A stretch of 64,000 nucleotides of DNA from Vicingus serpentipes. Its GTDB lineage: Bacteria; Bacteroidota; Bacteroidia; Flavobacteriales_E; Vicingaceae. Positions 1 to 63,531 of this stretch are shown piece by piece. Each line of letters begins with the position of its first letter. Position 1 is the stretch's first letter. The DNA is taken from positions 1 to 64,000 of the forward strand of contig JAGFIT010000079.1 in the NCBI GenBank assembly GCA_024103385.1, in the 5' to 3' direction. The notes beneath the pieces are model-generated. The model saw only the letters and a program-made list of their open reading frames with translations, ran no database searches and was not told the DNA's origin. A program made the position numbers and the translations under genes.

Positions 1-762
1 AACGTATCTATCATGATTTGGTTTGTGCCCTTTTTGGTAAACATGGCGATTAAGTCGGTTAAATCAAGAGGAGATATGGACGAGGAATATCATTTAGAGT
101 ACATCAGCACGGGAATTATGGCTACTCCAGACATGTCTATTTTAGAGGCCCAAAAAGAAGTGGCTAAGTTTGGAAAGTTGGTACAGCGGATGAATGGATT
201 TTTGAAAGATTTAATCACAACAACTGACGCTAAAGAAATAAGCAAAACATTGGCAAGAGTTAAAAAATACGAAGACATAACAGACCGTATAGAATCAGAT
301 GTAGCAGATTATTTAGCAAAAATTTCTCAAGAAGAAATGAGTGAAGAGTCAAGTGTTCGAATAAGAGGAATGTTAAGAATTATTGGAAATTTAGAAAGAA
401 TGGGAGACATCTATTATCAAATGTCTAAAGGAATAGAAAGGAAAAATGAGCAAAAAGTATACTTTACTCCAGAACAAAGAGAAAAAGTATTAAGCATGTT
501 TGACTTGGTGGATGATGCGCTGAAAAACATGAATAAAAACCTTGATGGAGAATATGAAGAGATATCTATTTCTAAAGCAATAGAGCTGGAAAATGTAATT
601 AACAAGTATAGAAAAACATTAAGAAAAGAACATTTTGAAAGTGTGGAAAAAGGAGAATACAACTTTAAAAGCGCTACAATTTATAGCGACCTGTTTAATT
701 CATTAGAAAAAATAGGTGATCACGCTATTAATGTTGCAGAAGGAATTAAAGGAGTGGTTTAA
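1..762 (+). CDS. Na/Pi cotransporter family protein, C-terminal part with PhoU-like domain (5' truncated by window)
   Basis: The frame is open from base 1, so the gene starts outside the window. An ATG at 13 is internal. The first ~20 visible residues are hydrophobic (IWFVPFLVNMAI) and look like the end of the last membrane segment of a NptA/Na-Pi-II type transporter. The rest (~45-245) is a charged all-helical region with two PhoU-like halves; motifs include GNLERMGDIYYQ and the closing SLEKIGDHAINVAEGI, which are typical of PhoU bundles. The family imports phosphate with sodium across the inner membrane. The position at the head of a PhoB/PhoR-like cluster fits phosphate uptake. Family assignment is strong; the ion specificity is inferred. 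Confidence 0.85.
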   Translation, partial: NVSIMIWFVPFLVNMAIKSVKSRGDMDEEYHLEYISTGIMATPDMSILEAQKEVAKFGKLVQRMNGFLKDLITTTDAKEISKTLARVKKYEDITDRIESDVADYLAKISQEEMSEESSVRIRGMLRIIGNLERMGDIYYQMSKGIERKNEQKVYFTPEQREKVLSMFDLVDDALKNMNKNLDGEYEEISISKAIELENVINKYRKTLRKEHFESVEKGEYNFKSATIYSDLFNSLEKIGDHAINVAEGIKGVV

Positions 763-873
763 CTTTAAGTTAATATTTCTTAACTATCTAATAACATAAG
801 CATAAAGCTATTTTTACCCGAAAGCTAAATTTTGGTCGTTTCTTTGAAGAAAAATTAAAAACTTTAAAAAAAG

Positions 874-1188
874 ATGAGAATATTAGTTTTAGTTATCGCT
901 TTATTTAGCATTGTCAATCTTAGCGCAAACAACAATGAAGACAAGCTAAAAAGTTTTTCAATTAGCGGAAAAGTGCTAGATAATAAAGAAAGTTTAACGG
1001 GTGTTAAAGTGATGTTAGACAACAAAGAGGTGATTGTTTATACTGATTTTGAAGGAAACTTCACTCTTCAAAATGTGATAGAAGGAGAACATACCCTGTC
1101 TTTTAGTTTAATCGCTTATGACGACAAACAAATAACTTTTAACACAAAAGAAGCTTCTACATTAGAAGTAGAGTTAAAAGAAAAATAA
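874..1188 (+). CDS. small secreted CarboxypepD_reg-like domain protein
   Basis: A 104-residue protein. Residues 1-18 form a signal peptide (MRILVLVIALFSIVNLSA). Residues ~28-100 form one CarboxypepD_reg-like beta-sandwich, recognised by SISGKVLDNKE, then VKVMLDNKEVIVYTDFEGNFTLQNV and GEHTLSFSLIAYD. This domain is usually the N-terminal part of TonB receptors, but here it stands alone. It is probably periplasmic or surface exposed; no catalytic motif is present. A clear rho-independent terminator follows at 1211-1238, so it is probably a single-gene transcript or the end of the upstream transporter transcript. Confidence 0.7.
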   Translation: MRILVLVIALFSIVNLSANNNEDKLKSFSISGKVLDNKESLTGVKVMLDNKEVIVYTDFEGNFTLQNVIEGEHTLSFSLIAYDDKQITFNTKEASTLEVELKEK

Positions 1189-1757: not shown

Positions 1758-1833
1758 AAGGTAAGTTCAGCGAAGCTAATCCAGAAAAATGAAACAGGAA
1801 TAAATAACGCCTTTCCCTATTCATAATAGACGC

Positions 1834-1851
1834 TTAACATTAAATTAACTA
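1834..1851 (+). promoter_or_regulatory. candidate Pho-box-like direct repeat upstream of the atypical response regulator
   Basis: TTAACAT-TAAA-TTAACTA: two 7-base half sites with an 11-base period, the spacing known for PhoB-type sites. It ends 36 bases before the ATG. A -7-like TAATTTTA lies about 20 bases downstream. Three similar sites precede the other units of this cluster. Confidence 0.4.
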
Positions 1852-1887
1852 CTGAACAAGGGTGTTCTACTAATTTTAAATACTAGA

Positions 1888-2565
1888 ATGACCCCAATAA
1901 TTAACATATTGAGCAGTAATACTTCGGAACTGGAAGCCTTTAAAAGGTTTTTTGAAACAGAAGGCTTTGAGGTGTTTGTGTCTTCTGTTGTTGATGAGAA
2001 AAGCATTAATGAAATTTACAAAAACCACCCGGATGTTATTTTATTGGACTTAAACATTGAAAATTCTGACGGCATTGAGTTGTGCTACCAATTAAAAACA
2101 GAAAATGTGTTGAACTCTTACATTGTTTTATTTACTGACCATCAAGAGGAATACATACAAATAGAAGCCTTTAAAGCGGGGGCAGATGATTATATTGTTA
2201 AGCCTATTAACTCACGTGTTTTATTAAAAAGAATAAACGCCCTATTAAAAAGAAAACGGCTTAATCCAAAAAAAGAAAAACCAAAAATTGTTTCTTATAA
2301 CAATTTAAAAATTGATAGAGAGAGTTATTTGGTGTATAACGATGGAGAAAAAATATCTTTACCCAGAAAAGAATTTGAAATGCTTTTTTTATTAATTGAT
2401 AAACCCCAAAAAGTGTTTTCTAGAGAAGAAATTTTTCAGAAAGTGTGGAAAGAAAATAAGGGCACTAACCTTCGTATTATAGATGTACACATTCGAAAAA
2501 TTAGAGAGCAGATAGGAGAGAATATCATTAAAACAATAAAGGGCGTAGGTTATCAGCTAGCCTAA
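1888..2565 (+). CDS. OmpR/PhoB-family response regulator with degenerate receiver domain
   Basis: A 225-residue protein with a receiver domain (1-120) and a winged-helix DNA-binding domain (~130-225; RKEFEMLFLL, FSREEIFQKVW, IIDVHIRKIREQIG, IKTIKGVGYQ). It is the same length as, and clearly paralogous to, the canonical regulator at 7339-8016. In that paralogue the Mg-binding acid pair is D10-D11; here the aligned positions are S10-N11 (NILSSNTSE). The phospho-acceptor D54, T83 and K105 remain. Loss of the acid pair usually weakens or abolishes phosphorylation, so it may act constitutively or in another way. No kinase is adjacent. A Pho-box-like repeat precedes it. Confidence 0.88.
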   Translation: MTPIINILSSNTSELEAFKRFFETEGFEVFVSSVVDEKSINEIYKNHPDVILLDLNIENSDGIELCYQLKTENVLNSYIVLFTDHQEEYIQIEAFKAGADDYIVKPINSRVLLKRINALLKRKRLNPKKEKPKIVSYNNLKIDRESYLVYNDGEKISLPRKEFEMLFLLIDKPQKVFSREEIFQKVWKENKGTNLRIIDVHIRKIREQIGENIIKTIKGVGYQLA

Positions 2566-2579
2566 CATCTTCTTTTTTT

Positions 2580-2601
2580 GTCATACTGAGCCTGCCGAAG
2601 T
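2580..2601. repeat. half copy of a Bacteroidota REP-like intergenic repeat
   Basis: GTCATACTGAG..CCGAAGTA in the gap between two convergent genes. It resembles one arm of a widespread intergenic repeat; the second arm is not seen. The rest of the 112-base gap holds nothing I can name. Confidence 0.4.
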
Positions 2602-2677
2602 ACCCCCTCCCACCCATTTTTCATTATTTTTACGATAGCATAATGTGGATAAATAACATATGTTGTTTATTCGATTG

Positions 2678-5491
2678 TTACCCCACCAAATACTTAACCC
2701 CTAAACTAAAGGTGCTTCCGCTTTTGTAGGAGTTAAAAATATATTCTTGGTCTTTGTAGGTATATGTTTGTTTTATCAGAGGGTTGAGAATGTTTTGTGC
2801 TTTAAAAGTTAGGCTAAAGTGTTTTCCTAGTTTTTTATTGATATTAAAATCCAATTGGTGCACAGGTTTTTGATACACATTTGGTGTGGCACCAACAATT
2901 ACAACTGCAATTTTTTCTCCAGACACATTGTAACTTAAGTTAACAGAAAGCCCTAAAGAATCGTTGTTATATCCCGCAAACACATTAATAATGTAAGGAG
3001 ATTGTCCAAATAAACTTCTGGTATCAGCTGCATTAGGGTCAAGAGCTCTGATTAACTCTAATTCTTGGGCATCTATGCCTACTTCAGAGAAAACATACGT
3101 AAAGTTACCTCCAATGCTAAAGGTATTAACAGAGCCAGAAATAAAGTCTAATGCTTTTTTAATCTCAAACTCGGCACCATAAACGGTAGCGTTATCAATG
3201 TTTCTCCAAGTTAACTCTGAGTTTTGAGCTTGTGTGTTAAATACCAATTCAATGGGGTTAGAAAACGCTTTGTAAAAACCTCCTACAGAAATTATTTCCC
3301 CATAGTTAGGAAAGACTTCATAGCGTAAATCAAAGTTGTTTACCAATGTCCTTTCTAAATCAGGATTTCCTACAATAATCCAGTTGGTAGAAAAATCGTA
3401 AGTAGCAAAAGGGGCAATCTCTCTAAATGTGGGGCGCGCCAATGTTCTAGAAAAAGTAGCTCTTAGGTTGGTTTTTTCGTTTAATGCATAAGAAGTATTG
3501 ATTGCAGGTAAAATATCGATTTCACTTAATGTCCCTACTTTTTCCTTTTGGTCAAAGCTTCTAGCGGTAATATCAGTAGTTTCTAACCGGGCACCAGTTA
3601 CTAGACGAAGCTTATCTGTAGCCCAAATGTCACCCATTAAATATGTCGCAGCAATAGTTTGGTCAGCAGAGTAACTGTTTCTTCTTTCAGTAGCATCTTC
3701 AATGTATAGATAGCTAGAAACAGGGTTTCCTGGGCCTGGTAACACCATGTTGGTGTCGTTAAGGTACTCAGCAACGCTTCCGTTATAGTTTAAGAAGCCT
3801 TGAGAACGGTAATTATATCTGTTTTCTGTTAGTAGTCTTTCTTGCCATAAATAAGCTCCTCCAAACTTTATTTTGGATGTTTTACCCTCTTTTTCTTTTA
3901 TAGCGAATTCGAAGTTCAATTTTGCGTCAGCGGTAGCTTGTTCTAGTTCTCTGTAAAAACGTGTTGGAACAGGGTAGATGGCAGCTTGTATGCTGTAGTT
4001 GGTGTCACCAGTTATTTCATCTAATGTATAATCATTAGAGAAATAACGCAAATCGGGTTGATTTTGATTGGACTGAGAAAAAGCATACATCCAGTCCACT
4101 TTTAATTTTTTTAATCCTTCAAAATAGTGTTCTCCTTTAGTTTGATAGCTACTTAATTTATTCTCTTGGTATTCTAAGGCACGTGTTTGAAAGTACAACC
4201 CTTCTTGGTCACTTGGTATTTCTCCTTCTTGAAAAGAAGTGGTGGTAATGCCGTTTTGATTTCTTAAATAAGTAAACCCTAATTTATGGTTGCTAGAAAT
4301 TTTATAAGAAAGGTTGGCAAAAGCACCCCACAATACATTTTCTGAAGAGCGCACATCCTTTAGCGTACGAGTTGGATTTAATTCGTCAACATCAGCTACT
4401 TTTCCGGTTAGTTCGTACCTTCCTGTCTCTGCGTCTTTATCTCTATGTTCAAACTTTTTAGAATAAGAAAGACCCGTAATAAAACCTAAATCTTTTCCGA
4501 AAAGACGAACCAAATTTCCTACAGACCCTGAATAACGTTGGTTAAGGAATGATTGTTTCTCAACTCCTTCCATCTCTTTATTAAAAGCGTTTCCTATTTT
4601 TTCTAATCGAGCATTGTCAACAAACAAGGCTGGAATTCTGTTGCTGGCTGTTGGCCGCTCTCTTGTTCCATCATCAAAACCCAAATAATCAGTGCCACCA
4701 CCTTCATAGGTTAAAAAATCATCTTTTAAGCTAGATGCTGTATTATATCCTAAAGAACTGGAAAACTGAAAAGTAAACTGTTCTGGAAAATCTTTGGTTT
4801 CTATATCTACCAATCCTCCAGTAAAACTTCCAGGCAAATCAGGAGTAAACGCTTTAATTACTTTCATGTTTTCTATCATGTTGGTGGGGAATAGATCTAG
4901 TTGTACCGCATTTCTATTGGGGTCTAATCCTGGAATTTCTGCTTTGTTTAAAGTGGTTTTACTGTATCGGTCACTTAGCCCTCTTACATAAACATACTTC
5001 CCTCCCTCTATGGTTAAACCAGTCACTCTTTTAGCCGCAGAAGCAGCATCATTATCCCCTCTTTTTGCTATTTCTTTTGCGCCAATAGCTTCCATTACGG
5101 TAGCTGATTTTCTTTTTACCTGTAATAAATATTCTTCATTTTTTCTGTCTGCTTTTGCTTCAACAGTAAACATGGCTATTGCCATAGCAGATGTGGCTAA
5201 TGAGAAGTTATGACTGCTTATCTCCCCATCTTTTACGGTAACATTAATGGTGTCCGACCGAAAGGAAATGTAAGAACAAATGACCTGATGTTCTCCTGCA
5301 GCAATATTCGGAATGCGATAATTTCCATCAATATCAGCCATACACCCAGTTGTTGTTCCTTTTAGCAAAACTGTTGCACCAATCAGCTCTTCTCCCGTTT
5401 CTGCGCTGGTTACTTTTCCCTGTATAGTCCCCTGAGAAAATGTTGTGTTTACAATAAAAGAAAACAATGCAGCATAAAGTATTTTTTTCAT
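2678..5491 (-). CDS. TonB-dependent outer-membrane receptor with N-terminal CarboxypepD_reg domain
   Basis: A 937-residue protein. Signal peptide 1-19 (ending TTFSQ), then a CarboxypepD_reg domain (~20-105; IQGKVTSAETGEELIGATV), a plug domain (~125-240; VMEAIGAKEIAKRGDNDAA, YVYVRGLSDRYSKTTLN) and a long beta-barrel ending in an aromatic strand (SFSLGVKYLVG). The typical barrel motif LRATFSRTLARPTFREIAP is present at about two thirds of the length. It would import a substrate across the outer membrane using TonB energy. The lipoprotein gene upstream on the same strand and a Pho-box-like repeat at 5544-5561 suggest a phosphate-starvation role, for example uptake of a phosphorus compound; the substrate is not visible in the sequence. 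Confidence 0.92.
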   Translation of the reverse strand: MKKILYAALFSFIVNTTFSQGTIQGKVTSAETGEELIGATVLLKGTTTGCMADIDGNYRIPNIAAGEHQVICSYISFRSDTINVTVKDGEISSHNFSLATSAMAIAMFTVEAKADRKNEEYLLQVKRKSATVMEAIGAKEIAKRGDNDAASAAKRVTGLTIEGGKYVYVRGLSDRYSKTTLNKAEIPGLDPNRNAVQLDLFPTNMIENMKVIKAFTPDLPGSFTGGLVDIETKDFPEQFTFQFSSSLGYNTASSLKDDFLTYEGGGTDYLGFDDGTRERPTASNRIPALFVDNARLEKIGNAFNKEMEGVEKQSFLNQRYSGSVGNLVRLFGKDLGFITGLSYSKKFEHRDKDAETGRYELTGKVADVDELNPTRTLKDVRSSENVLWGAFANLSYKISSNHKLGFTYLRNQNGITTTSFQEGEIPSDQEGLYFQTRALEYQENKLSSYQTKGEHYFEGLKKLKVDWMYAFSQSNQNQPDLRYFSNDYTLDEITGDTNYSIQAAIYPVPTRFYRELEQATADAKLNFEFAIKEKEGKTSKIKFGGAYLWQERLLTENRYNYRSQGFLNYNGSVAEYLNDTNMVLPGPGNPVSSYLYIEDATERRNSYSADQTIAATYLMGDIWATDKLRLVTGARLETTDITARSFDQKEKVGTLSEIDILPAINTSYALNEKTNLRATFSRTLARPTFREIAPFATYDFSTNWIIVGNPDLERTLVNNFDLRYEVFPNYGEIISVGGFYKAFSNPIELVFNTQAQNSELTWRNIDNATVYGAEFEIKKALDFISGSVNTFSIGGNFTYVFSEVGIDAQELELIRALDPNAADTRSLFGQSPYIINVFAGYNNDSLGLSVNLSYNVSGEKIAVVIVGATPNVYQKPVHQLDFNINKKLGKHFSLTFKAQNILNPLIKQTYTYKDQEYIFNSYKSGSTFSLGVKYLVG

Positions 5492-5543
5492 GGATTTTAG
5501 TCTAATTTATATTCTGCAAAGAAAAATATCAGCCGTAATTAGG

Positions 5544-5561
5544 CCGTTAAACAAATGTTAA
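5544..5561 (-). promoter_or_regulatory. candidate Pho-box-like direct repeat upstream of the TonB receptor
   Basis: Read on the minus strand: TTAACAT-TTGT-TTAACGG, the same 7+4+7 layout as at 1834 and 7276. It ends 52 bases before the receptor ATG. Confidence 0.4.
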
Positions 5562-5662
5562 GCATCTGTTATGAGTGAGGTAGTATAAATAAAAAGAAAT
5601 GGACAACTTAAAAAAAGAAAATAGTTGCTCAAGCAAGGAATAATAAGGGTTATACAAAAATA

Positions 5663-5691
5663 AAAAGCCTCCCAAAAATCAGGAGGCTTTT
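5663..5691 (-). terminator. rho-independent terminator after the beta-helix lipoprotein gene
   Basis: Perfect 10-base stem AAAAGCCTCC / GGAGGCTTTT with a 9-base loop, 20 bases after the stop of the minus-strand gene ending at 5711. It separates that gene from the TonB receptor gene, which therefore needs its own promoter. Confidence 0.85.
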
Positions 5692-5710
5692 ACTTTATAT
5701 CAACTTAATA

Positions 5711-7087
5711 TTAAGGGAATGTTAATGTCCACCCTTGTGCCCAGTTTGTTCCGTTAGCATCAAATGCTCCTAAATAAGTTACATTGTCATACCAAGAATC
5801 TGCTGCCGCAACACCTGTTCCTAAGCTTGTAGAAGGAATTGGGTTGCTTGCTGAAATAGATGCGGCTGTTGTGCTTACATTTGAAACACTAGCATGTCCA
5901 GATAAATCGGCACCAGCATTAGTAACAGCGGAAACAATGTTGTCAGCACCAATATTTGAAAGAACAATTCCGGCTAACTTTAATTGACCAGCATCTAATC
6001 TTGCTTTAGAGTCTTCTCCTGAAGCTAAGTCTTCAATGTCTATTCCTTTTCCAAAATTATGGAATACAGAGTTGTGGTATTCTCCACCAGCGTTATCTCT
6101 AAATGTTATTGCTCTACTTGTTCCGTTACCAATATAAGTGGAGTTGTAAATTACAGGTGTCGCATATGGTGTTCCATCTTCAGGAGATGTTCCCCCATCA
6201 TGCTCCCCTCCTCTATCAGAGTTGGCATTTTCGATAGCTACCCAAAACTGTCCTTTTCCTCTGTATCCTTGGTCATAATCATAAGAATCGTCACCAACGT
6301 TAGAAACTAAGATGTGTTTTAGGTTAGGTGTCCCACCAAAAAATTCAACACCATCATCAGCATTGGCAACTACTTCTATGTGGTGAATGGTTGTTCCTGA
6401 ACCTACACCACCAAGTGTTAACCCGTTAATTTCGTTTCCAGCCCCAATATCTGTTCCTCCATGACGAATAGAAACATAACATAAAGAACCAGAGTTATCA
6501 GCATCATTAGAGCCACCATAAGAACCTCTTGGCTCAGAAGTAGGTATTCCTTCAATGTTTTGTGAGCCAGGAACGGTGTTTAATGTCGCGTCACCTAAAA
6601 GAATTAAACCGCCCCATTGTCCAGTAGTGCTTAAACCAACAGAGCCATCTAATGGATCTGCTTCGAAAGTAAAAATAATAGGTTCTGAAGCTGTTCCACA
6701 AGCGTTAATCATTCCTCCTTTAGCAACAATTAATGCAGAAGCAGAAGCTCCAGTTCCAGGCTTTCCTTTTATTACTGTTCCTGGTTGTATGGTTAAAGTT
6801 TGTCCTGAATTAACAAAAACAAAACCGTCTAATAGGTATACTTTGTCTTTTGTCCAAGTGGTTGTACCTGTTCCTGAACCATTGTCTGTCACTGTTACAA
6901 CATTATTTCCTGTCGGTGTTGGAGTTGGCTCTATCGCATAAACACAAGATCCATCATCTTTGTCTGCATCAGCGTTATAATTTGTTGCTGTTGCATCGGT
7001 ACAACCCTCTTTTTTAGAACAGGAAGTAAACAGACTTCCTATCCCGAAGGAGATAGCCGTAATTAGTAGTAAATTTTTTGTTTTCAT
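5711..7087 (-). CDS. right-handed beta-helix lipoprotein, likely cell-surface
   Basis: A 458-residue protein with a lipoprotein signal (lipobox LFTSC, Cys at ~23), then a Cys-containing Asp-rich motif (GCTDATATNYNADADKDDGSC, split here as GCTDATATNY and ADKDDGSC) found in many Bacteroidota surface proteins, then a P/T linker. From ~60 on it is rich in G, N, T and V with regular short strands (LTIQPGTVIKG, ALIVAKGG, NGLTLGGVGSG, HHIEVVANADDGVEFFGG), as in parallel beta-helices. Proteins of this type are often mislabelled multidrug transporter. It sits upstream of a TonB receptor and downstream of a Pho-box-like site, so it may be the surface partner of that receptor. Ligand unknown. Confidence 0.75.
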   Translation of the reverse strand: MKTKNLLLITAISFGIGSLFTSCSKKEGCTDATATNYNADADKDDGSCVYAIEPTPTPTGNNVVTVTDNGSGTGTTTWTKDKVYLLDGFVFVNSGQTLTIQPGTVIKGKPGTGASASALIVAKGGMINACGTASEPIIFTFEADPLDGSVGLSTTGQWGGLILLGDATLNTVPGSQNIEGIPTSEPRGSYGGSNDADNSGSLCYVSIRHGGTDIGAGNEINGLTLGGVGSGTTIHHIEVVANADDGVEFFGGTPNLKHILVSNVGDDSYDYDQGYRGKGQFWVAIENANSDRGGEHDGGTSPEDGTPYATPVIYNSTYIGNGTSRAITFRDNAGGEYHNSVFHNFGKGIDIEDLASGEDSKARLDAGQLKLAGIVLSNIGADNIVSAVTNAGADLSGHASVSNVSTTAASISASNPIPSTSLGTGVAAADSWYDNVTYLGAFDANGTNWAQGWTLTFP

Positions 7088-7193
7088 TTTCTTAATTTTA
7101 GTTTTAAATAAGGTTTATTATTATTTTCTGAGGCAAAGGAAGGCAGTGTTTATTACTAGACCATAAAAACAACCTTATACTTATTTTATGTTC

Positions 7194-7211
7194 GTGTTAA
7201 GCAAACATTAC
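7194..7211 (-). promoter_or_regulatory. candidate Pho-box-like direct repeat upstream of the beta-helix lipoprotein
   Basis: On the minus strand: GTAATGT-TTGC-TTAACAC, the weakest of the four members but with the same 11-base period. It lies 106 bases before the ATG. Confidence 0.33.
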
Positions 7212-7275
7212 CTAGATAAAGTCTTCTTTAAGAAATGAAGTAAAAAGCCTGTTATAATAAGGAGAATACAATTAA

Positions 7276-7293
7276 TTAATGTTAAATTAACAT
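7276..7293 (+). promoter_or_regulatory. candidate Pho-box-like direct repeat upstream of phoB-like gene
   Basis: TTAATGT-TAAA-TTAACAT, 45 bases before the ATG of the PhoB-like regulator, which would allow autoregulation. A -7-like TAACTTAG follows 18 bases later. Confidence 0.42.
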
Positions 7294-7338
7294 CCTAAAA
7301 GAAATAGGAGAGTAACTTAGTATCAAAATTAAAAGACT

Positions 7339-8016
7339 ATGAGTAACGAAAAAATATTATTAGTTGATGATGAGTTAGATATTATTGAGTTTTTGGGTTA
7401 TAATCTAACAAAGGAAGGATATGATGTAACTACTACTACTAATGGCAGGGAAGCTATAGAGTTGGCTCAAAAAATTAAGCCAGACTTAATTGTTTTGGAT
7501 GTGATGATGCCAGAAATGGATGGAATTGAAACCTGTCATGAAATCAGAAACATAGAGGGGTTAAAAGATACGTTGATAGCCTTTTTAAGTGCTAGGGGTG
7601 AAGACTATTCCCAAGTAGCAGGGTTTGATGCAGGAGCAGATGATTATATTACGAAACCCATCAAGCCTCGATTACTAGTAAGCAGAGTAAAGGCAATTTT
7701 GAGAAGAAAGTCGGGAGGAGAAGAAATTACCATAAATGAGCAAGAAGGAAACATAAAAATAGATAGAGAAAAGTATTTGGTATATAAAGATGGGAAAGAG
7801 TTCTCTTTTCCTAAGAAAGAATTTGAATTGTTGGCTTTATTAATTTCTAAACCCGGGAAAGTGTTTACGAGAGATGTTATTTTAGAAGCAGTTTGGGGAG
7901 GAGAAGTAATTGTGGGAGATAGAACAATTGATGTGCATATTCGAAAATTAAGGGAAAAACTAGGAGATCACTACATTAAGACTATAAAAGGGGTGGGTTA
8001 TAAGTTTGAATCATAA
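7339..8016 (+). CDS. phoB: PhoB-like two-component response regulator
   Basis: A 225-residue OmpR/PhoB-family protein. The receiver domain (1-120) has the full set of key residues: D10-D11 (LLVDDE), phospho-acceptor D54 (IVLDVMMPEMDG), S84 and K106 (YITKPI). The winged-helix domain (~130-225) ends IKTIKGVGYKFES. A histidine kinase gene follows after 96 bases, giving a classical pair. The resemblance to PhoB/PhoR pairs plus the nearby Na/Pi transporter supports a phosphate-response role, but the symbol rests on context; another OmpR-type regulator is possible. Confidence 0.88.
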   Translation: MSNEKILLVDDELDIIEFLGYNLTKEGYDVTTTTNGREAIELAQKIKPDLIVLDVMMPEMDGIETCHEIRNIEGLKDTLIAFLSARGEDYSQVAGFDAGADDYITKPIKPRLLVSRVKAILRRKSGGEEITINEQEGNIKIDREKYLVYKDGKEFSFPKKEFELLALLISKPGKVFTRDVILEAVWGGEVIVGDRTIDVHIRKLREKLGDHYIKTIKGVGYKFES

Positions 8017-8112: not shown

Positions 8113-9153
8113 ATGAAAGATTTAACGCCTAATGATATAGCCTTACGAATTTCCTTTTTGGTAGCCATAGTGGTTACGCTCTTGGTCTTTTTTTTAGAGC
8201 GCCTTGATTTGAGAGCAACAGTTATTGTTGTGGCAGCATTTCCAATTGTTTTTTTAGCTTCTTATGTTGGTTTTAAGATAGCTGTAGAGAAATTTATTTA
8301 CAAAAAAATAAAGTTAATTTATAAAACTATACATAGCCTTAAGCGCACAACGGGAGGAAAAGCAAAAGAATTGGACTTAAATACAGATGTATTAAGTCAG
8401 GTAAAATCAGAGGTGGAGGCATGGGACAAAACCAATAGACAAGAAATAAAACGGTTAACAGGCTTAGAAGCCTATCGGAGAGAATTTATAGGAAATGTAT
8501 CTCATGAATTAAAAACTCCGATTTTTAATATTCAAGGTTATTTATTAACTCTTTTAGAGGGTGGATTAGAAGATCCGAAGATTAATGTTAATTATTTAGA
8601 AAAAGCGAATAAGAGCGTGGATAGAATGATTACACTAATAGAAGATTTAGACGAAATAACCAAATTGGAATCGGGAATTATTGAAATGAATGTAGCTAAA
8701 ATTGATTTAGTAGAATTGATAAAAGAGGTAATTAGCTCTTTAGAAATGCAAGCTAAAAATAGTCAGGTTACCTTAACCTTTGTGGATAAACCGAACAAAC
8801 CATTATGGGTAATGGCAGATTATGACCGCATCTGCCAAGTAGTAACGAACTTAGTGGTAAACTCCATTAAATACGGAAAAGAAGGAGGGAAAACATTGAT
8901 TAAGCTTTTTGATATGGATGAAAACATATTGGTTGAGGTGGCAGATAATGGAACGGGTATAGCTTCAGAACATTTACCGCGATTATTTGAGCGATTTTAC
9001 AGAACAGACAAAGGAAGAGCTAGGGAGAGCGGAGGGACTGGGCTTGGATTGTCTATTGTTAAACACATTATTGAGGCACACGACCAAACGATTAATGTGA
9101 GAAGTACCGTTGATGTGGGATCGACTTTTTCGTTTACTCTTAAAAAGGCATAA
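8113..9153 (+). CDS. phoR: PhoR-like sensor histidine kinase
   Basis: A 346-residue inner-membrane kinase. Two membrane segments (~12-28 and ~34-55) with almost no periplasmic loop are followed by a helical linker, then a HisKA domain with H131 (FIGNVSHELKTP) and a HATPase domain (N box NLVVNSIKYG, G1 DNGTGI, F box LFERFYR, G2 GGTGLGLSIVKHI). The lack of an extracytoplasmic sensor domain matches PhoR-like kinases that sense the transporter state, often via PhoU; the PhoU-like tail of the transporter at the window start would suit this. Its partner is the regulator just upstream. Confidence 0.88.
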   Translation: MKDLTPNDIALRISFLVAIVVTLLVFFLERLDLRATVIVVAAFPIVFLASYVGFKIAVEKFIYKKIKLIYKTIHSLKRTTGGKAKELDLNTDVLSQVKSEVEAWDKTNRQEIKRLTGLEAYRREFIGNVSHELKTPIFNIQGYLLTLLEGGLEDPKINVNYLEKANKSVDRMITLIEDLDEITKLESGIIEMNVAKIDLVELIKEVISSLEMQAKNSQVTLTFVDKPNKPLWVMADYDRICQVVTNLVVNSIKYGKEGGKTLIKLFDMDENILVEVADNGTGIASEHLPRLFERFYRTDKGRARESGGTGLGLSIVKHIIEAHDQTINVRSTVDVGSTFSFTLKKA

Positions 9154-62334: not shown

Positions 62335-63531
62335 TTAGTATAACAATTGATTAGGGTAAATGTGCAGATGCGTATTCTTTATATTTTCATAAAGCACCTC
62401 TTTCAACTCTTCAATGTTTATTTTCTTTACAGCAGAAATGTATACGGTTGGATCTTCCACCTTAGACATCCACATTTTTTTTAAATCTTCTAACGAGTAA
62501 TTTTCTTTAGTTTTAGGTAATAAATCATCTTCATCCATTTTCACATAAGTGAAAGCATCCACTTTATTAAAAACAATGATAGTTGGTTTATCTAAAGCGC
62601 CTATATCTTTTAATGTTTCATTAACTACATTAATATGATCTTCAAAATTAGGATGAGAAATATCAACAACATGAACCAGTACGTCAGCATCCCTTACTTC
62701 ATCTAAAGTAGATTTAAACGATTCTACTAAGTGGTGAGGTAACTTCCGGATAAAACCTACGGTATCTGTAAGTAAGAAGGGAAGGTTTTTAATAACCACT
62801 TTTCGAATAGTGGTATCTAAAGTGGCAAATAATTTATTTTCAGCAAAAACTTCTGATTTACTGAGCATGTTCATAATGGTAGATTTGCCAACATTAGTAT
62901 AACCAACTAGAGCAACTCTAACCAATTGCACTCTTTGCTGACGCTGAGTAGATTTTTGTTTATCAATCTTCTTGAGCTTTTCTTTTAGTAAGGTGATTTT
63001 TTGAAGAATAATTCTTTTATCTGTTTCTATTTGAGTCTCTCCAGGACCTCTCATTCCAGCTCCACCACCTTTTTGCCTGTCTAGGTGAGTCCATAATCGA
63101 GTTAAACGGGGTAAAAGGTATTGGTATTGTGCCAATTCCACTTGTGTCCGTGCATGTGCAGTTTGGGCTCTTGTAGCGAAGATGTCGAGAATAAGATTAC
63201 TTCGGTCTAAAATTTTTACTTCTAAAACGCGTTCAATATTTCTCAGTTGTGCAGGAGATAATTCATCATCAAAAATGACCATGTCAATTTCGAGTTCTTT
63301 CACATAGGAAAGCACATCTTCTATCTTTCCTTTACCAATAAAAGTTTTTGGGTGAGGGGTATCTAATTTTTGAGTAAATCGTTTAACTGTTTTTATCCCT
63401 GCGGTTTCAGCTAAAAAAGCTAACTCATCTAAATATTCAATGGTAGTTCTTTCATCTTGGTCTTTGGTGGTAACACCAACTAAAATGGCCGTCTCTTTAT
63501 AATCTGAGGTAGAATAACTCGTTTTTTTCAA
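62335..63531 (-). CDS. hflX: GTPase HflX
   Basis: A 398-residue protein. The N-terminal HflX domain (~1-190) includes GKGKIEDVLSYVKELEIDMVIFDDELSP (in parts) and DRSNLILDIFATRAQTAHA, the linker has GGGAGMRGPGETQIETDKR, and the G domain has G1 GYTNVGKST, G3 DTVGFIRKLP and G4 NKVD. HflX binds the large ribosomal subunit and rescues or splits stalled ribosomes. The start is a TTG at 63531, since the next ATG would remove much of the N-terminal domain. The small membrane protein gene ends 12 bases upstream, so they may be cotranscribed. Confidence 0.94.
   Translation of the reverse strand: MKKTSYSTSDYKETAILVGVTTKDQDERTTIEYLDELAFLAETAGIKTVKRFTQKLDTPHPKTFIGKGKIEDVLSYVKELEIDMVIFDDELSPAQLRNIERVLEVKILDRSNLILDIFATRAQTAHARTQVELAQYQYLLPRLTRLWTHLDRQKGGGAGMRGPGETQIETDKRIILQKITLLKEKLKKIDKQKSTQRQQRVQLVRVALVGYTNVGKSTIMNMLSKSEVFAENKLFATLDTTIRKVVIKNLPFLLTDTVGFIRKLPHHLVESFKSTLDEVRDADVLVHVVDISHPNFEDHINVVNETLKDIGALDKPTIIVFNKVDAFTYVKMDEDDLLPKTKENYSLEDLKKMWMSKVEDPTVYISAVKKINIEELKEVLYENIKNTHLHIYPNQLLY

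Follow-up and report, generated by a model that had tools for sequence, protein, structure and literature searches.

Arrays of 11-bp direct repeats before phosphate genes are a probable Pho box of Bacteroidota

The PhoP box of Bacillus subtilis is built of repeats of the form TT(A/C/T)A(C/T)A. The Pho box of SphR, the cyanobacterial orthologue of PhoB, presents CTTAACCT every 11 bp, with 3-bp linkers and at least three units (PMC1906773), and the PhoB box of Escherichia coli, CTGTCAT-N4-CTGTCAT, ends 10 bp before the -10 element (PMC3465305, PMC1906773). PhoB of Bacteroides fragilis binds the pstC promoter on a 512-bp pst fragment in which the site was not defined (PMC3547664). In Flavobacterium johnsoniae, Pi depletion induces PhoB, a TonB receptor (Fjoh_0545), and a beta-helix lipoprotein (Fjoh_0546), while PhoR, encoded in the same cluster, barely changes and the OprP gene is not induced (PMC8115612). 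PhoP of Riemerella anatipestifer binds DNA containing TTTAACA in EMSA experiments, including its own phoPR promoter, and in that study the motif was compared with that of ArcA and linked with virulence and oxidative stress rather than with phosphate (PMC9603813). Housekeeping promoters of flavobacteria carry the -7 element TAnnTTTG (PMC9723704). Our search, which was confined to an open-access library and did not extend to subscription journals, turned up no paper in which a Pho box is defined for Bacteroidota.

The DNA analysed here (the window) is a stretch of 64,000 nucleotides from Vicingus serpentipes, near one end of which lies a gene cluster with a PhoB-like regulator (Table 1). The first-pass annotation of this stretch had proposed that the pattern TTAAYRT-N4-TTAAC, seen at four sites upstream of four units of the cluster, is the Pho box of this lineage. 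With a probability of roughly 0.85, we consider that the arrays to which these sites belong are Pho boxes of this part of the Bacteroidota, through which the PhoB-type regulator (7339-8016) would switch on the phosphate-starvation response.

Table 1. Arrays and genes of the cluster. Positions are those of the window unless a contig is named; offsets are counted from the first T of the box, and distances run from the four originally noted sites to the start codon.
Feature	Position	Strand	Details
Na/Pi box TTAACAATAACTTAACATT	contig C41 at 16683		First T 80 bases before ATG; TTTG at offset 52
Na/Pi cotransporter-PhoU gene, 3' part	1..762	+	PhoU domain; start on contig C41
Extra array, ORF 874-1188	759..846	+	TTAACT 759, TTAATA 770, TTAACT 780, ATAACA 791, ATAAAG 802; TTTG 843 (41 after last unit, 802+41)
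Small exported protein, CarboxypepD_reg domain	874..1188	+	Downstream of the 759 array
Array, atypical regulator	1823..1850	+	ATAATA 1823, TTAACA 1834, TTAACT 1845; -7-like TAATTTT 1871 (offset 37); distance to 1888 ORF 54 bases
PhoB paralogue without receiver acidic pair	1888..2565	+	Recognition helix DVHIRK kept
TonB-dependent receptor	2678..5491	-	Position matches Fjoh_0545 in the F. johnsoniae phoBR locus
Array, TonB receptor	5517..5572	-	ATAACA 5572, TTAACA 5561, TTAACG 5550, ATTACG 5539; TTTG 5520-5517 (offset 41); distance 70 bases
Lipoprotein, counterpart of beta-helix lipoprotein FII (Fjoh_0546)	5711..7087	-	No own Pfam or NCBIfam match
Array, beta-helix lipoprotein	7134..7211	-	GTAATG 7211, TTAACA 7200, ATAAAA 7189; TTTG 7137-7134 (offset 74 = 41+33); distance 124 bases
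Pair, phoB	7276..7320	+	TTAATG 7276, TTAACA 7287; -7-like TAACTTAG 7313 (offset 37); distance 63 bases
PhoB-like response regulator	7339..8016	+	Best NCBIfam models TIGR02154 PhoB and Bacteroides PhoB
PhoR/PnpS-like sensor kinase	8113..9153	+

The coordinates and strands given for the four sites were right, as was their placement upstream of genes, but the pattern is exact in only three: the site at 7194-7211 (minus strand) reads GTAATGT-TTGC-TTAACAC, in which G replaces the first T of the consensus. The exact pattern occurs four times in the 64-kb window, against 0.18 occurrences expected from shuffles; the fourth of these matches, at 62610, lies inside an ORF and was rejected. Genome-wide (3.1 Mb) there are only 10 exact matches, three of them within the 5.5-kb cluster, and the pattern with one mismatch shows no excess over the whole genome (250 matches, versus 306 for a reversed control), which indicates a locally concentrated motif rather than a widespread element. 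As the same sites had supplied the pattern, this count alone would be circular, and we therefore turned to independent data: a profile from relatives only, the promoters of genes on which no model was trained, a free count of spacings, and the phase with the -7 element.

The half-site core, (T/A/G)TAA(C/T)(A/G), recurs once per 11 bp in arrays of about two to six half-sites, usually three or more. Of the layout first described, 7+4+7 bases with an 11-base period, the period is confirmed, but the two-unit arrangement is simply the strongest pair of a longer array. The lipoprotein array, for example, continues with weaker in-phase units downstream of the unit at 7189. All four of the promoters originally listed as carrying a box stand, but the total for the cluster is six. 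The array at 759, which had been overlooked, has five units with one step of 10 bp and is kept in eight relatives, with TTTG at offset 84 in seven of them and 83 in the eighth.

The period is also apparent when all same-strand TTAAY pairs are counted without use of the motif. Pairs at 11 bp number 66.7 per 10 kb in the target promoters, compared with 0.6-12 at the other spacings up to 21 bp (the upstream windows of divergent genes overlap, so that the spacing is independent but not all of the pair counts are), and a second peak falls at 22 bp. Other genera alone give 58.8, and Na/Pi plus pstS promoters 66.7, pairs at 11 bp per 10 kb; control sequences contain none.

The genomes of 60 relatives were searched, and 40 syntenic or homologous loci were compared. 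Most genus members and many members of other genera have boxes at these loci, in similar positions: -52 to -80 before phoB, -63 to -70 before the TonB receptor gene (within the genus), -103 to -136 before the beta-helix lipoprotein gene, and -54 to -67 before that of the second regulator. With a matrix built from the four window sites only and a threshold at the 99th percentile of shuffles, phoB promoters score above threshold in 12 of 14 genus members and in 11 of 26 members of other genera. Equal frequency in shuffled or unrelated upstream regions, named by the first-pass annotation as fatal to its proposal, was not what we found: none of the 33 phoR and none of the 10 glycosyltransferase promoters exceeds the same percentile, and a control sequence inside the Na/Pi gene has no box.

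A second profile, composed of 40 sites from the relatives' promoters with the window sequence left out, was scanned over the 3.1-Mb genome. The phoB site ranks first, the TonB receptor site second, the lipoprotein site third, that of the regulator at 1888 fifth, and the promoter of the Na/Pi cotransporter, on contig C41, thirteenth. Two hits were discarded: rank 4 (C47:34111) lies within a predicted ORF, and a hit at 5703-5726 coincides in part with the 3' end of the lipoprotein gene, stop codon included, where conservation is at least partly coding. Outside the cluster, in-phase matches to the pattern are mostly in ORFs, and strict boxes are few in this genome. Phosphate genes were not picked out when three Flavobacterium genomes were scanned with the profile.

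Direct reading of the homologous promoters was more informative; the 80 loci compared for this covered relatives of F. johnsoniae but not that species. Flavobacterium species near F. johnsoniae keep the cluster, with 11-bp TAACA arrays before the genes for OprP and the TonB receptor; the one before OprP is a conserved three-unit array, TAACATCTGGTTAATGATTTCTTAACA, despite the lack of OprP induction in F. johnsoniae. A separate observation concerns a MORN-repeat gene: in other genera, 7 of 10 promoters of homologues of the window's gene at 1258-1719 score as box-bearing, whereas in the window the box is located after this gene rather than before it.

The Na/Pi cotransporter gene has been divided between contigs. 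An identical stretch of 127 bases is found at the end of contig C41 (G000:C41:15174-17822) and at the start of the window, and the reading frame continues into the PhoU domain, so this transporter gene, split by the assembly, is the next member of the cluster. It is the only Na/Pi-cotransporter gene in the genome, found in these two stretches, and its pair of PhoU domains are the only ones. PstS was not found in the whole genome (the assembly is 97% complete), and the search for boxes before pstSCAB that had been suggested was therefore moved to relatives; there a box does precede pstS, but this genome offers no such gene to examine. With neither PstS nor a PhoU beyond the Na/Pi fusion, a phosphate signal would need a route to the kinase other than through Pst.

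Promoters of the two transporter types were held out of training and counted as box-bearing if their score was reached by at most 1 of 60 shuffles. In the relatives, 18 of 30 Na/Pi-cotransporter promoters and 12 of 23 pstS promoters pass. Across the class, 11 of the 23 pstS promoters are without such a box, and none (0/6) was seen before six weak matches to the pstS Pfam family, which are other binding-protein genes rather than pstS. Hits thus precede phosphate genes, as the original proposal had anticipated, both at this genome's own Na/Pi cotransporter and at the Na/Pi-cotransporter and pstS genes of relatives. In two genomes with a poor PhoB match (G053 and G059), the transporter promoter examined has no box, which is a slight hint in favour of a link to PhoB.

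The arrays also keep a fixed position relative to the promoter, as a Pho box should. TTTG starts at a half-site + 41 + 11k: counted from the first T of the box, its offset is 41 for the TonB receptor and phoB promoters, 41 or 52 for Na/Pi, and 63 or 74 for the lipoprotein. The offsets in the cluster itself follow the same series, and both regulator promoters have their -7-like words, TAATTTT and TAACTTAG, at the same offset of 37 (Table 1). For 87 boxes of relatives, a single phase out of eleven accounts for 49 of 70 TTTG words, although the relatives are not independent samples and a binomial p-value therefore overstates the evidence. A helical phase that is held across three turns is suggestive of a bound activator that touches RNA polymerase, and the phased element most likely binds an activator of this kind.

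Judging by its sequence, the regulator that binds the arrays is most likely the PhoB-like protein (7339-8016). Its receiver is complete, with the acidic pair, phospho-Asp, T/S, and Lys, and is joined to an OmpR-type DNA-binding domain; the kinase gene adjoins. Although its scores are under the NCBIfam cut-offs (210.8 versus 296.2 for TIGR02154, and 203.5 versus 270 for NF053854), these remain its two best models, and its recognition helix, RTIDVHIRKLREKL, is nearly the same as the RTVDVHIRRLRKAL of E. coli PhoB. Phosphorylated PhoB would bind the half-sites head to tail on one helix face, with the PhoR-like protein (8113-9153) as its presumed partner kinase, and would probably activate by contacting RNA polymerase in the region of the would-be -33 element. 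Under low phosphate, phoB itself would be turned on in a positive feedback, along with the Na/Pi-PhoU transporter, the TonB receptor, the beta-helix lipoprotein, the small exported protein, and the second PhoB paralogue. The arrays indeed precede phosphate-starvation genes, including the regulator's own. The Pho box reading proposed at the outset is in this way borne out by the 11-bp period, the location at phosphate genes, and the excess over shuffles, and we infer that the PhoB-like protein is what binds.

Both PhoB paralogues might instead read the boxes, with the protein at 1888-2565 binding the arrays without phosphorylation and either competing with or helping PhoB; we regard this as a serious alternative, but one with the odds somewhat against it. 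The recognition helix of this paralogue, RIIDVHIRKIREQI, is near-identical to that of the PhoB-like protein, its best model is also PhoB, and its promoter has a box of its own. Loss of the acidic pair is conserved in the genus, and outside it the phospho-acceptor Asp is likewise gone from the second regulator encoded next to Na/Pi-PhoU (LDV changed to IPV/LPV). However, there are loci with boxes near which no paralogue is seen, even if it may be encoded elsewhere in those genomes. The analysis also draws attention to a conserved PhoB paralogue, impaired in its receiver, next to the phosphate transporter. A more speculative extension, which we consider less likely than not, is that phosphate signalling in this family is Pst-free: the PhoU-fused Na/Pi cotransporter would report phosphate, and the arrays would be shared by the canonical PhoB and by a paralogue whose receiver is closed to the usual phosphorylation, which would tune or hold the promoters without input from the kinase.

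Improbable by comparison is that the element is the box of a global OmpR-type regulator with envelope or redox functions, to which the link with phosphate would be secondary. Such a regulator would resemble Riemerella PhoP, for which DAP-seq yielded 583 peaks and an ArcA-like motif with TTTAACA (PMC9603813), and pstS is upregulated in a phoPR deletion mutant (PMC5399024). Yet strict boxes in this genome are concentrated in a single phosphate cluster, the held-out phosphate transporters of relatives have boxes, and the F. johnsoniae counterparts of the cluster respond to Pi depletion and are tightly repressed under N and Fe limitation (PMC8115612). The sites are real, and chance is ruled out in spite of the AT-rich genome: TTAA-rich words are common and the one-mismatch pattern has no genome-wide excess, but dinucleotide-shuffled promoters fail to reproduce the sites, chance is contradicted also by the profile ranks, control genes, 11-bp spacing, -7 phase, and cross-genus conservation, and a core promoter element would be expected before most genes, so that chance or core-promoter sequence as the full explanation is refuted and keeps a negligible probability.

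Read as a Pho box, the element is a lineage-specific form of a known kind of system, and its promoter phase has been measured. Together, the box and its precise phase allow this group's phosphate regulon to be predicted from sequence, and the prediction can be tested by moving or mutating units. The motif of Riemerella PhoP has the same core in another flavobacterium, which suggests that it is the same box, the likeness being one of motif. The B. subtilis PhoP box has TTAACA-like hexamers ~11 bp apart, as here, although phylum and promoter type differ. With the E. coli PhoB box the arrays share direct repeats of 7 conserved and 4 loose bases, the 11-bp period, a similar recognition helix, and a location before phoB and phosphate uptake genes; unlike in E. 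coli, 15 bp separate the end of the second unit from TAnnTTTG (4 bp when a third unit is counted), and the bases are different. The first-pass annotation was correct that the geometry is that of PhoB sites while the bases differ from CTGTCAT, the units reading TTAACA or TTAATG, but the enterobacterial box was the wrong yardstick. The closest known system is the cyanobacterial SphR box, whose CTTAACCT is nearly the same as the units found here, although in our arrays TTAAC is in most cases followed by A or G instead of C, there are two to six units, and the repeats are phased to the Bacteroidota -7 element TAnnTTTG.
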